This document shows positions 9,054-40,654 of a stretch of 50,506 nucleotides of DNA, in pieces. This stretch comes from Methylotenera sp. GTDB lineage: Bacteria; Pseudomonadota; Gammaproteobacteria; Burkholderiales; Methylophilaceae. The notes under the pieces were generated by a model, which worked only from the letters and a program-made list of their open reading frames with translations, was not told where the DNA came from and made no database searches. Location: NCBI GenBank assembly GCA_023259635.1, contig JALRGX010000148.1:1-50506 (forward strand), read 5' to 3'. Every line of letters starts with the position of its first letter. Within the stretch, counting starts at the first letter, position 1. The position numbers and the translations under genes were made by a program.

Positions 9054-10541
9054 TTATTTAGCCAGCTTCAAGGTTTGCAACGTTCGTTCGCGTACCCGTT
9101 TTAGCAGGCTGGCATCATCAACCAATGATTCGCCATAGCTTGGTACCAATGCTTTTAATTTTTGCTGCCATTCCGGATTTTTTAACTCGGTTCTAAAGCA
9201 ACGTTCAATTACATCGATCATTGCCTGTACTGAAACAGAGGCGCCGGGTGAAGCGCCTAACAGCGCGGCAATACTACCGTCTTGCGCGCTTACGATTTCG
9301 GTGCCGAATTCAAGCTTGCCACCCTTAGTGTCGCACTTCTTAATGATTTGCACACGCTTGCCGGCATCTTGCAGGTGCCAGTTGCTATCTTTAGCTTGCG
9401 GATAAAAGTTACGCAGAGTTTTCATACGTGACGCATGTGTCTGCAGTGCTTCACCTATCAGATAACGTGTCAGGTCAAAACTATGCCAGGCAACGCTCAG
9501 CAAGGGTTTCAAATTGTCTAGTCTGATAGACTTGAATAAATCCAGATATGAACCTTGCTTTAAGAATTTAGTGGTAAAACCTGCATATGGGCCAAATAGC
9601 AAGGACGGCTGACCATTGATGATTCTTGTGTCTAGATGCGGCACTGACATTGGCGGCGCGCCGAGCGCGGCCTTGCCATAGACTTTACTGTGGTGCTGCT
9701 TGATAACCTCAGGGTCGCTGCACACCAGCCATTGACCGCTGACAGGAAACCCTCCATAGCCCTTACTTTCCGGTATGCCTGATTTTTGTAACAGTTTCAA
9801 TGCACCGCCACCTGCACCAAGAAATACAAAGCCAGCATCAATGCTTGATGTTGCGTTATTATTTATATTCTTCAATTCAACCAGCCAGCGGCCGTTATTG
9901 TTTTGTTTTAATGCAGTTACTTCGGTATCAAGGGAGAGCGTGAAATTATTTCTGGCCTGCAGGGAGCTAATCAGGCTACGGGTCAGGGCGCCAAAATTCA
10001 CATCGCTGCCATAAGCAACACGAGTGGCAGCAAGCGGTAGCTTGTTGCTATCTCTTTGTTGCATTATCAGCGGCATCCATGCTTTCAAGGTTGCTTCATC
10101 ATCGCTAAATTCCATATCCTGAAACAAGTGATGCGCTTTAAGCGCAGCATGGCGCTTACGTAAAAAATCGACATCAGCATCGCCCCAGACAAAACTCAGA
10201 TGCGGTACGGCATTAATGAAGTTTTGCGGAGTTGGCAATATATTCTTTTCGACTAATGATGACCAAAGCTGCAAAGAAACTTCAAAGGAAGCATTAATCG
10301 CTAACGCACGGTTGATTTCAACGTTCCCGGCCGCATCCATCGGGGTGTAATTTAATTCACAGTAACCGGCATGGCCGGTACCGGCATTGTTCCAGGCATC
10401 TGTACTTTCGGTAGCTGCGCCAGATTGGCGTTCTACCATCATGATATTTAATGAGGAATCCAGTTCCGATAACAATGTGGCCAAAGTTGCACTCATCACA
10501 CCGCTACCGACTAATAGCACATCTACTTTTTGATTATTCAT
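9054..10541 (-). CDS. mqo: Malate:quinone oxidoreductase
   Basis: VDVLLVGSGVMSATLATLLSELD, NNAGTGHAGYCELNYTP, GFPVSGQWLVCSDP, LFGPYAGFTTKFLK. Confidence 0.95.
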   Translation of the reverse strand: MNNQKVDVLLVGSGVMSATLATLLSELDSSLNIMMVERQSGAATESTDAWNNAGTGHAGYCELNYTPMDAAGNVEINRALAINASFEVSLQLWSSLVEKNILPTPQNFINAVPHLSFVWGDADVDFLRKRHAALKAHHLFQDMEFSDDEATLKAWMPLIMQQRDSNKLPLAATRVAYGSDVNFGALTRSLISSLQARNNFTLSLDTEVTALKQNNNGRWLVELKNINNNATSSIDAGFVFLGAGGGALKLLQKSGIPESKGYGGFPVSGQWLVCSDPEVIKQHHSKVYGKAALGAPPMSVPHLDTRIINGQPSLLFGPYAGFTTKFLKQGSYLDLFKSIRLDNLKPLLSVAWHSFDLTRYLIGEALQTHASRMKTLRNFYPQAKDSNWHLQDAGKRVQIIKKCDTKGGKLEFGTEIVSAQDGSIAALLGASPGASVSVQAMIDVIERCFRTELKNPEWQQKLKALVPSYGESLVDDASLLKRVRERTLQTLKLAK

Positions 10542-38932: not shown

Positions 38933-38960
38933 ATTTTACATAATATACATTATACGAAAT
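38933..38960. other. Chromosomal dif site (XerC/XerD recombination site)
   Basis: ATTTTACATAA-TATACA-TTATACGAAAT; 23/28 identical to reverse-complemented E. coli dif (ATTTAACATAA-TATACA-TTATGCGCACC), with the central 6 bp identical. Confidence 0.88.
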
Positions 38961-39031
38961 AAGCATTATTATTTTGCGGAATAGTTATTCATTTTCACTT
39001 CTGCTTTTGGACAACTCCAAAAGGACTAAAA

Positions 39032-39268
39032 ATGAAAGAATTTCCGCACAATGTTTTTAATGTTCAGCTCACCCGTTCACAATTAGAGCTGCTTTCTAAA
39101 ATGCTAGACCAAGAAATTGCCACTCTTGAGTCTGGGTATGCACACCCACACCCACAAATTCTTAAAAAGACTGCCCGCGTGATTTGGGAACAACTGCAAC
39201 CTTCACCAGCAGAAAAGCAAAAACGCTTTGCTTCTTGGGTTAATAACTTGGGTTTGGCATCATGTTAA
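39032..39268 (+). CDS. Small hypothetical protein of the IMEX (78 aa)
   Basis: RBS aaaagga before ATG; stop overlaps the next ORF start (39262). Confidence 0.65.
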   Translation: MKEFPHNVFNVQLTRSQLELLSKMLDQEIATLESGYAHPHPQILKKTARVIWEQLQPSPAEKQKRFASWVNNLGLASC

Positions 39269-39462
39269 TCGACCATTCAAAACCCATTAGAACCGAACCC
39301 GTAAGCCTTCGTCGTTTTGCAGAGCTTACGGGCTTATCCCTTGATTTACTGCGCACATACTGCCTGCAAGGCCGTATTTTAGGCGCTCGCAAGCATGTAT
39401 TGACTAAGCAATGGTGGATTTACCCGCCCGCCAAGATTGTGCCTAGTCAAAAGCGCTGGTGA
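39262..39462 (+). CDS. Small excisionase/MerR-like wHTH protein (66 aa)
   Basis: VSLRRFAELTGLSLDLLRTYCLQGRILGARKHVLTKQWWIYP resembles the HTH_17/Xis fold. Confidence 0.65.
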   Translation: MLIDHSKPIRTEPVSLRRFAELTGLSLDLLRTYCLQGRILGARKHVLTKQWWIYPPAKIVPSQKRW

Positions 39463-39887
39463 AGCGGAAAAAGTACAAACGCAAGCCATATAAGCCAATA
39501 GATAAAGACCAGTTTATGGAAATCAGGAAAATTAACCGAATGAGTATTGAGCAGGTCGCCAAGCTGTTACAGGTGACCAGTAGAACGATAGCGCATTGGG
39601 AAAGCGGCGTTACCCGCATTCCCTATTCCGCTTTTAAGCTGCTGCGCTGCCTTGCCAATGGTGAATTGCTGCCTGATGTCTGGAAAGGTTGGACTATCAA
39701 AGGAGACACCCTTTGGTCGCCCGTGGGTAGACCGTTCCGGCAACATGAGCTTACGTATTTATCACATTACTTCACTATGGCTCGCTATTGGCAAGCGGAT
39801 TATGAACGCCGAAATGCCACAAGGCAAGGGGCTCAATCGCCCACTGCCCGCCCCTTGTTACGGGTCTTGAAAGGGGGCAAGGCATGA
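39459..39887 (+). CDS. VC1465-family Xer recombination activation factor (XafT-like, DUF3653-type)
   Basis: HTH MSIEQVAKLLQVTSRTIAHWESGVTRIPYSAFKLLRCLANGELLPDVWKGWTIKGDTLWSPVGRPF; GTG start overlaps the preceding stop. Confidence 0.78.
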   Translation: MKRKKYKRKPYKPIDKDQFMEIRKINRMSIEQVAKLLQVTSRTIAHWESGVTRIPYSAFKLLRCLANGELLPDVWKGWTIKGDTLWSPVGRPFRQHELTYLSHYFTMARYWQADYERRNATRQGAQSPTARPLLRVLKGGKA

Positions 39888-40249
39888 ATGCGCCAATGTT
39901 TAAAGGGCTTTTAGCGCCGTATGGGGGCATGACCCCATATAGACAGCGACAAAGCGCATTTATACGGCGTCTATCGCGTGCGGTTAAGGGTAGCGGTTTG
40001 CTTCAGGCCATTGCGCGCCCTGTAGACGGTTTTAAAGGGGTTATAACCAGACAGAGCGCGTGTGAAGCGCGGCAGCGCGTCGGCAGCGTGATGGATGGTT
40101 ATTTGTTGTTAGATAACCTGGCGTATTCCCCTATTTCTCGTCTGCTTCGCTTCTTAATAATAAGCGAAGTTTCGGCAACGGGTTGCCTTATTTGCAGGCC
40201 GTTAAATAGACCTGTAAGCCTTACGCTTACAGGCTTTGGGGGTTTTTAA
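39884..40249 (+). CDS. Hypothetical protein, possibly only partly real (121 aa)
   Basis: ATGA coupling with the upstream gene, but its 3' third coincides with three hairpins. Confidence 0.4.
   Translation: MNAPMFKGLLAPYGGMTPYRQRQSAFIRRLSRAVKGSGLLQAIARPVDGFKGVITRQSACEARQRVGSVMDGYLLLDNLAYSPISRLLRFLIISEVSATGCLICRPLNRPVSLTLTGFGGF
40145..40233. other. Cluster of three adjacent hairpins (possible ssDNA replication/packaging region)
   Basis: CTTCGCTT(40145-40152)/AAGCGAAG(40162-40169); GGCAA(40174-40178)/TTGCC(40183-40187); CCTGTAAGC(40211-40219)/GCTTACAGG(40225-40233). Confidence 0.6.
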
Positions 40250-40250
40250 C

Positions 40251-40559
40251 ATGATAAAAAACTGTTCCGTCTCAAAATTGCAGGTTTTTAGTGCGCCGGC
40301 TGGTTACATTGAAGCGGTTTCTGTGGCGTATGCTGCCGCCAAAATGTACGTTTCTGAAAGGCGTATCCGGCAAATGCTGGCTACTGGCGTGTTAAGCGGC
40401 ACCAAGCAGTCAAGGGCTTGGCGTATTGATTATCCGTTCAGGGTGCGTCTTGGCACTCGTGGCCCTGCTTCTCAATACTTTAAAGACCGTTCTGTCGTAC
40501 CTAAAAAACGCTGGAATAGTTCGCCCTTTCCTAATCAGAAAATAAAAAAGGGAGTATGA
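40251..40559 (+). CDS. Small HTH_17/excisionase-like DNA-binding protein (about 102 aa)
   Basis: VAYAAAKMYVSERRIRQMLATGVLSGTKQSRAWRIDYP; ATG 40251 preferred over TTG 40236. Confidence 0.6.
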   Translation: MIKNCSVSKLQVFSAPAGYIEAVSVAYAAAKMYVSERRIRQMLATGVLSGTKQSRAWRIDYPFRVRLGTRGPASQYFKDRSVVPKKRWNSSPFPNQKIKKGV

Positions 40560-40626
40560 AAATCTTTCTTTGGCTGATATCCAATGTAGATAATTTAAAA
40601 ATTTAGCTCCAAAAGTAGACAGTTGA

Positions 40627-40654
40627 ATTTGTACAACTATACATTACACGAAGT
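40627..40654. other. Degenerate dif-like attachment site, right end of the IMEX
   Basis: ATTTGTACAAC-TATACA-TTACACGAAGT; 20/28 identical to the left dif: XerC arm 9/11, centre 6/6, XerD arm 5/11. Confidence 0.75.

Follow-up and report, generated by a model that had tools for sequence, protein, structure and literature searches.

What do three consecutive hairpins do in a short, dif-flanked stretch of Methylotenera DNA in which no gene for a replication initiator or a coat protein is detectable? The window, the whole stretch of 50,506 nucleotides analysed (contig JALRGX010000148.1), had been described from its letters as carrying three inverted repeats at 40145-40233 that overlap the 3' end of a 121-aa ORF (39884-40249), resemble a filamentous-phage intergenic region and might allow replication and packaging by a helper inovirus. 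All three repeats, and the overlap, are present where the preliminary description placed them, and the stability of the region is far beyond chance: the DNA fold of 40140-40240 reaches -24 kcal/mol, where 200 dinucleotide shuffles give -11.1 +/- 2.4 (z = -5.39, none of the 200 as good), and that of 39884-40260 has z = -4.9.

The first two hairpins, hp1 and hp2 (40145-40187), form a single module of a TAAY-loop stem, a fixed spacer and a stem with an A(C/T)GGGT-type loop, which from sequence comparison is best read as a putative plus-strand origin used by a PF05144-type Rep. A search definition of two hairpins at fixed spacing, the first with TAAY and the second with GG in its loop, was set after the relatives had been seen; it has one match in the 50.5 kb window, hp1+hp2 itself, with about 0.05 expected per window (2 matches in 2.02 Mb of dinucleotide-shuffled window). 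The third, hp3, is a good hairpin outside the conserved module and may have a role other than that of an origin.

A 1.69 kb element between dif-type sites

The element (38944-40638) has a full dif site on one side; the site on the other is dif-like, its XerD arm being degenerate (Table 1). Like most of the relatives read, it has the location of an IMEX, between dif or dif-like sites. Its 142-aa protein belongs to the XafT family of TLC-like satellites (NF040522, 84 bits; cut-off 70), and the PHROG 1668 'tail assembly' label on this protein is read as a naming artefact. The dN/dS of xaf is 0.07-0.22 and that of the 102-aa gene, whose relative in L029 matches HTH_17 (E 1.6e-5), is 0.15-0.31 where measurable. 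Rep and coat genes had been reported missing, and family searches of the five ORFs agree, with no Rep family and no coat or morphogenesis family among them. The motif AACTRTTCCG stands inverted near both element ends, also in relatives, and is perhaps an operator of the element's regulators.

Table 1. Features of the element and its cis region, by position in the window
Feature	Position	Strand	Description
Left dif (attL)	38933..38960	+	ATTTTACATAA-TATACA-TTATACGAAAT; full XerD-type arm, core, XerC-type arm
Inverted-motif copy	38977..38986	-	AACTATTCCG; inverse of the motif at 40260; at left end of many relatives
78-aa ORF	39032..39268	+	No family match; 41-65% identity in relatives
66-aa ORF	39262..39462	+	Cox-like excisionase/repressor; PHROG 575, E 4.8e-6
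142-aa ORF (xaf)	39459..39887	+	XafT/VC1465-family Xer recombination activation factor (DUF3653); NCBIfam NF040522, E 5.7e-24
121-aa frame	39884..40249	+	Over the cis region; no family match
hpA	39919..39944	+	GTATGGGG..CCCCATATAGAC (also GTATGGGG..CCCCAT.TAGAC); directly after xaf
CGCG block	40013..40039	+	GCGCGCCCTGTAGACGGTTTTAAAGGG
hp1	40145..40169	+	CTTCGCTT-CTTAATAAT-AAGCGAAG; first stem of proposed plus-strand origin
hp1 loop	40158-40161	+	TAAT; proposed nick region
hp2	40174..40187	+	GGCAA-CGGG-TTGCC; loop CGGG; second stem of proposed origin module
hp3	40211..40233	+	CCTGTAAGC-CTTAC-GCTTACAGG; just upstream of 102-aa ORF
102-aa ORF	40251..40559	+	Weak helix-turn-helix (excisionase-like) match; PHROG 1840, E 0.0035
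Motif	40260..40269	+	AACTGTTCCG; near right end of element
Right dif-like site (attR)	40627..40654	+	Degenerate XerD-type arm, core TATACA at 40638, XerC-type arm TTACACGAAG

Of the 188 genomes of the bacterial family, 25 encode relatives of the XafT protein. Most of those read are elements of about 1.4-2.7 kb that run from dif to dif; G149 has two such elements in tandem, and a Methylotenera MAG is one named relative.

The paired-hairpin module in satellites and inoviruses

The 25 nt of hp1 are identical in the satellites L029 and L035, though the XafT proteins are only 70-83% identical, and hp2 lies at the same place in both with a stem that has changed yet still pairs (TCTCA-TGGG-TGAGA in L029, GTCT-AACGGGTG-AGAC in L035). 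Conservation of hp3 extends only to the two closest relatives, with compensatory changes; the stem found at its place in L035 is altered and pairs (CCAATAGCC-TTAT-GGCTATTGG). Distant satellites (L037, L039 twice, L090, L091 and L092) have quite different hp1-hp2 stems with the same loop features and spacing. Within L039 (10503-10724) the hp1-hp2 module is duplicated together with a AAACTGTTCCG motif, and the stems differ between the copies.

A search pattern built from L037 and L039, scanned over the 2.9 million viral contigs of IMG/VR, matched seven contigs of 4.8-8 kb, all with inovirus genes. Six of them have a Rep gene, all six Rep proteins being PF05144 (G2P/CRI), and in five of the seven 3-48 nt separate the end of the module from the start of Rep. 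The second half of the module reads TTTGTCTCATGGGTGAGAC in L096-L098, and L029 has TTTGTCTCATGGGTGAGA of it. Built from inovirus modules only, a first covariance model (R1) recovers the satellites L039 (E 8.7e-14), L090 (6e-10) and L037 (2.4e-8), as well as L091, L092, L029 and L035 (up to 3.5e-4), and ranks the window module first in its 50 kb, not significantly (E 1.9).

A second model (R2) was built from a 16-sequence alignment that leaves the window out and includes L029 and L035, which share its hp1. Covariation in related elements, by which the preliminary description proposed to judge the hairpins, is present in this alignment, with compensatory changes in 13 of 15 base pairs and 94% of cells pairing. 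Its covariation score is 0.628 against 0.142 when shuffled and at most 0.126 when slid, the alignment having been fitted to the structure, which favours pairing and is partly addressed by the slid controls. R2 matches the window in full at 40144-40190 (E 5.1e-7), the sole match over the 2.2 Mb genome, a significance that is not fully independent because R2 holds the two relatives sharing the window's hp1; the claim is carried by a chain from inoviruses to distant satellites, from these to L029 and L035, and from these to the window.

In the bacterial family R2 matched 11 of the 188 genomes, five for satellites and six for non-satellites. PF05144 is present in five of the six non-satellite module genomes versus 3 of 182 others (Fisher p = 1.8e-7), and the module lies on the Rep strand wherever both were seen; in L067, L087 and L131 it immediately precedes Rep. 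Inoviruses and other PF05144 elements have the module beside and on the strand of the PF05144 gene, the satellites themselves being without Rep. The likeness to a filamentous-phage intergenic region stands for hp1+hp2, a module that is conserved, covaries and neighbours the PF05144 Rep genes of inoviruses in the same orientation, but does not extend to hp3, which is outside the module. As a candidate plus-strand origin, hp1+hp2 is well supported by computation.

The inovirus of G120, of the same genus, ends at a dif site with the module adjacent to it; the doxX-like gene beside that site also flanks the window's element. Nearly the same module recurs in the satellites L041 and L045, there on the strand opposite to xaf. 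In the satellite L038, a 19-nt block (10112-10130, ATTTATATTACGGACACAT) replaces hp1 and is identical in the inoviruses L074, L082 and L085. Exact hp1 scans of IMG/VR and GTDB returned known relatives only, with no inovirus carrying exact hp1; tblastn of XafT and Rep in INPHARED phages gave no matches, blastn of the origin gave one chance match and nothing further, and blastn of the element in plasmids gave no match.

Source of the Rep and other readings of the hairpins

A putative filamentous-phage origin on an element without a Rep or coat gene of its own suggests a life off a helper phage, like that of a natural phagemid. The search for a helper inovirus in the same genome, envisaged in the preliminary description, came out negative: the assembly (92% complete) has no Zot over the cut-off, and PF05144 is absent from its 2.2 Mb at E 1e-5. 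The relative L029/L062 stands beside an inovirus in the IMG/VR contig L062 (7831 bp), which reads dif, inovirus (Zot, pIII-like, Rep PF23343), dif, satellite, dif. A dif site marks every junction as well as the two contig ends, and inovirus and satellite are in opposite orientation relative to dif. In the inovirus part, outside the satellite, the model found no hp1/hp2 module, and its Rep is PF23343, not PF05144.

Further blocks shared with inoviruses lie upstream of the hairpins. The hpA motif is present in most close relatives and follows Zot in many inoviruses, and 25 nt of the window's cis region (40015-40039) are identical to intergenic noncoding inovirus DNA in L082 and L085. Three gokushovirus-like contigs (L077, L081, L088) have the motif shortly before their capsid gene as well, and for that reason it is not inovirus-specific. 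The idea that PF23343 Rep nicks at hpA was rejected, as the motif accompanies PF23343, PF02486 and PF05144 Reps. Its presence with several Rep families and before gokushovirus-like capsid genes may mean that the host, not Rep, recognises it, for example as a minus-strand origin. Together, hpA and the CGCG block (39919-40039) are as good a candidate for a packaging signal as the three hairpins.

These shared blocks bear on the possibility that the module is a PF05144 origin served by the Rep of another rolling-circle element of the host, so that the satellite would be amplified without inovirus packaging. Integrase-bearing PF05144 elements in G127 and G064, genomes in which no Zot was detected, do carry the module; satellites, however, have hpA and the CGCG block in common with inoviruses, use the same dif site as they do and in one case stand in tandem with one, and we regard supply by such an element as unlikely. 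Among the elements with a PF05144 Rep and no detected Zot (L126-L130), a tyrosine integrase-like gene was seen in L126 and L127, and the module was found in L126, L127 and L128, weakly in L129 and not in L130.

Reading the hairpins as terminators of transcription or as structures in mRNA would fit their place between two same-strand genes, xaf and the 102-aa gene. In addition, hp3 abuts the start of the second gene, and hp2 counts among the element's two weak terminator-like sites. That number is not above shuffles (2.3 expected), hp1 and hp3 are without a proper T-run, there is no Rfam match, the reading frame stays open through the hairpins, and the hp1-hp2 pair recurs upstream of inovirus Rep with fixed spacing and conserved loops, all of which makes this explanation very improbable.

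That open frame could itself be what is conserved, with the hairpins a by-product of a protein-coding 121-aa ORF: it has no stop in any of the seven elements counted, against 4-19 stops in each of the other two forward frames. Its residues, however, are nearly unconstrained, with dN/dS of 0.63-1.23 against the much lower values of xaf and the 102-aa gene; L031 has stops inside the hp1-like loop, the second module copy of L039 ends the frame, and the 13 covarying pairs change on both sides. A frame conserved at low dN/dS beside unconserved hairpins had been named as the case against the hairpins, and the reverse is seen; a coding origin of the conservation is scarcely credible. The frame is likely kept open because ribosomes must cross it on their way to the 102-aa gene.

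Some filamentous phages use a folded single-stranded attP (PMC4246890), and hairpins of this CTXphi type would fit an element that integrates at dif. The reading deserves almost no weight: the element has double-stranded dif-like sites at its two ends, over 400 nt away from the hairpins, which are unlike dif, and a degenerate XerD arm as the same paper describes for TLCphi.

Proposed replication by a helper and comparison with known systems

Taken jointly, the computed hairpins, the homology to Rep-adjacent inovirus modules, the covariation, the dif boundaries, the XafT family, the lack of detectable Rep and coat genes and the tandem of a relative make it probable that this is a 1.69 kb dif-integrated filamentous-phage satellite with hp1+hp2 as its plus-strand origin and with Rep and coat from a helper inovirus. 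In such a cycle, for which we infer Rep nicking, single-stranded DNA formation, replication in trans and packaging, a PF05144 (G2P/CRI-type) Rep from a co-infecting or co-resident inovirus would bind hp1+hp2 and nick in or beside the TAAY-containing hp1 loop, and the nick would start the displacement of single-stranded circles by rolling-circle replication. The helper would supply the coat and package the satellite, and the upstream hpA/CGCG block shared with helpers may serve as a signal for packaging or for the minus strand. Integration and excision by host XerC/XerD would fall to genes of the element itself, those for the XafT-like activator and for the Cox-like and HTH regulators.

The near identity of the L041 and L045 modules to that of the G120 inovirus, and the inovirus block in place of hp1 in L038, suggest module exchange. 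We lean slightly towards a whole family of natural phagemids, dif elements of 1.4-2.7 kb without Rep or coat genes that carry the origin of surrounding inoviruses, swap the module when the helper changes and have their integration steered by a XafT-like factor. If so, the satellites of filamentous phages include minimal natural ones that need only a cis origin and a Xer activator and are much smaller than TLCphi or RS1, and this would explain small dif insertions without a recombinase, Rep or coat gene. No description of a Rep-less satellite of this kind was found in the open-access literature. The module would also provide a sequence and structure model for the candidate PF05144 origin, by which satellites could be paired with helpers according to origin type.

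Like TLCphi, a filamentous satellite phage of Vibrio cholerae, the element is predicted to integrate at dif through host XerC/XerD, has an activator of the XafT family (NF040522; XafT was named in PMC9765430) and an attachment site with a degenerate XerD arm (attP in TLCphi), and lacks coat and morphogenesis genes. TLCphi carries its own replication module (PMC4246890), whereas the element, at 1.69 kb, has no detectable Rep, and thus no replication initiator of its own as TLC-like satellites have, and its putative origin is of the PF05144-inovirus kind. RS1, the satellite of CTXphi, is likewise small, dif-integrated and packaged by a filamentous phage, as the element would be, and is described as in essence identical to RS2, whose initiator is RstA (PMC4439123); no RstA was detected in the element, and the type of attachment site differs.

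The plus-strand origins of Ff (f1/M13) and CTXphi, which are nicked by HUH initiators, resemble the module in being hairpin clusters with inverted repeats, but differ in sequence: hp1-TTT-hp2 with TAAY and A(C/T)GGGT loops is a type of its own, and the nick site here is a proposed one. G2P of f1 is the namesake of PF05144. Phagemids and the laboratory miniphages of f1 carry an origin in cis and receive Rep and coat from a helper; unlike them, the element is natural, dif-integrating and encodes its own Xer activator and regulators. We file it as a variant of the filamentous-phage satellites which, without the replication module of its own that defines TLCphi, shares with TLCphi the use of Xer and the lack of coat genes.
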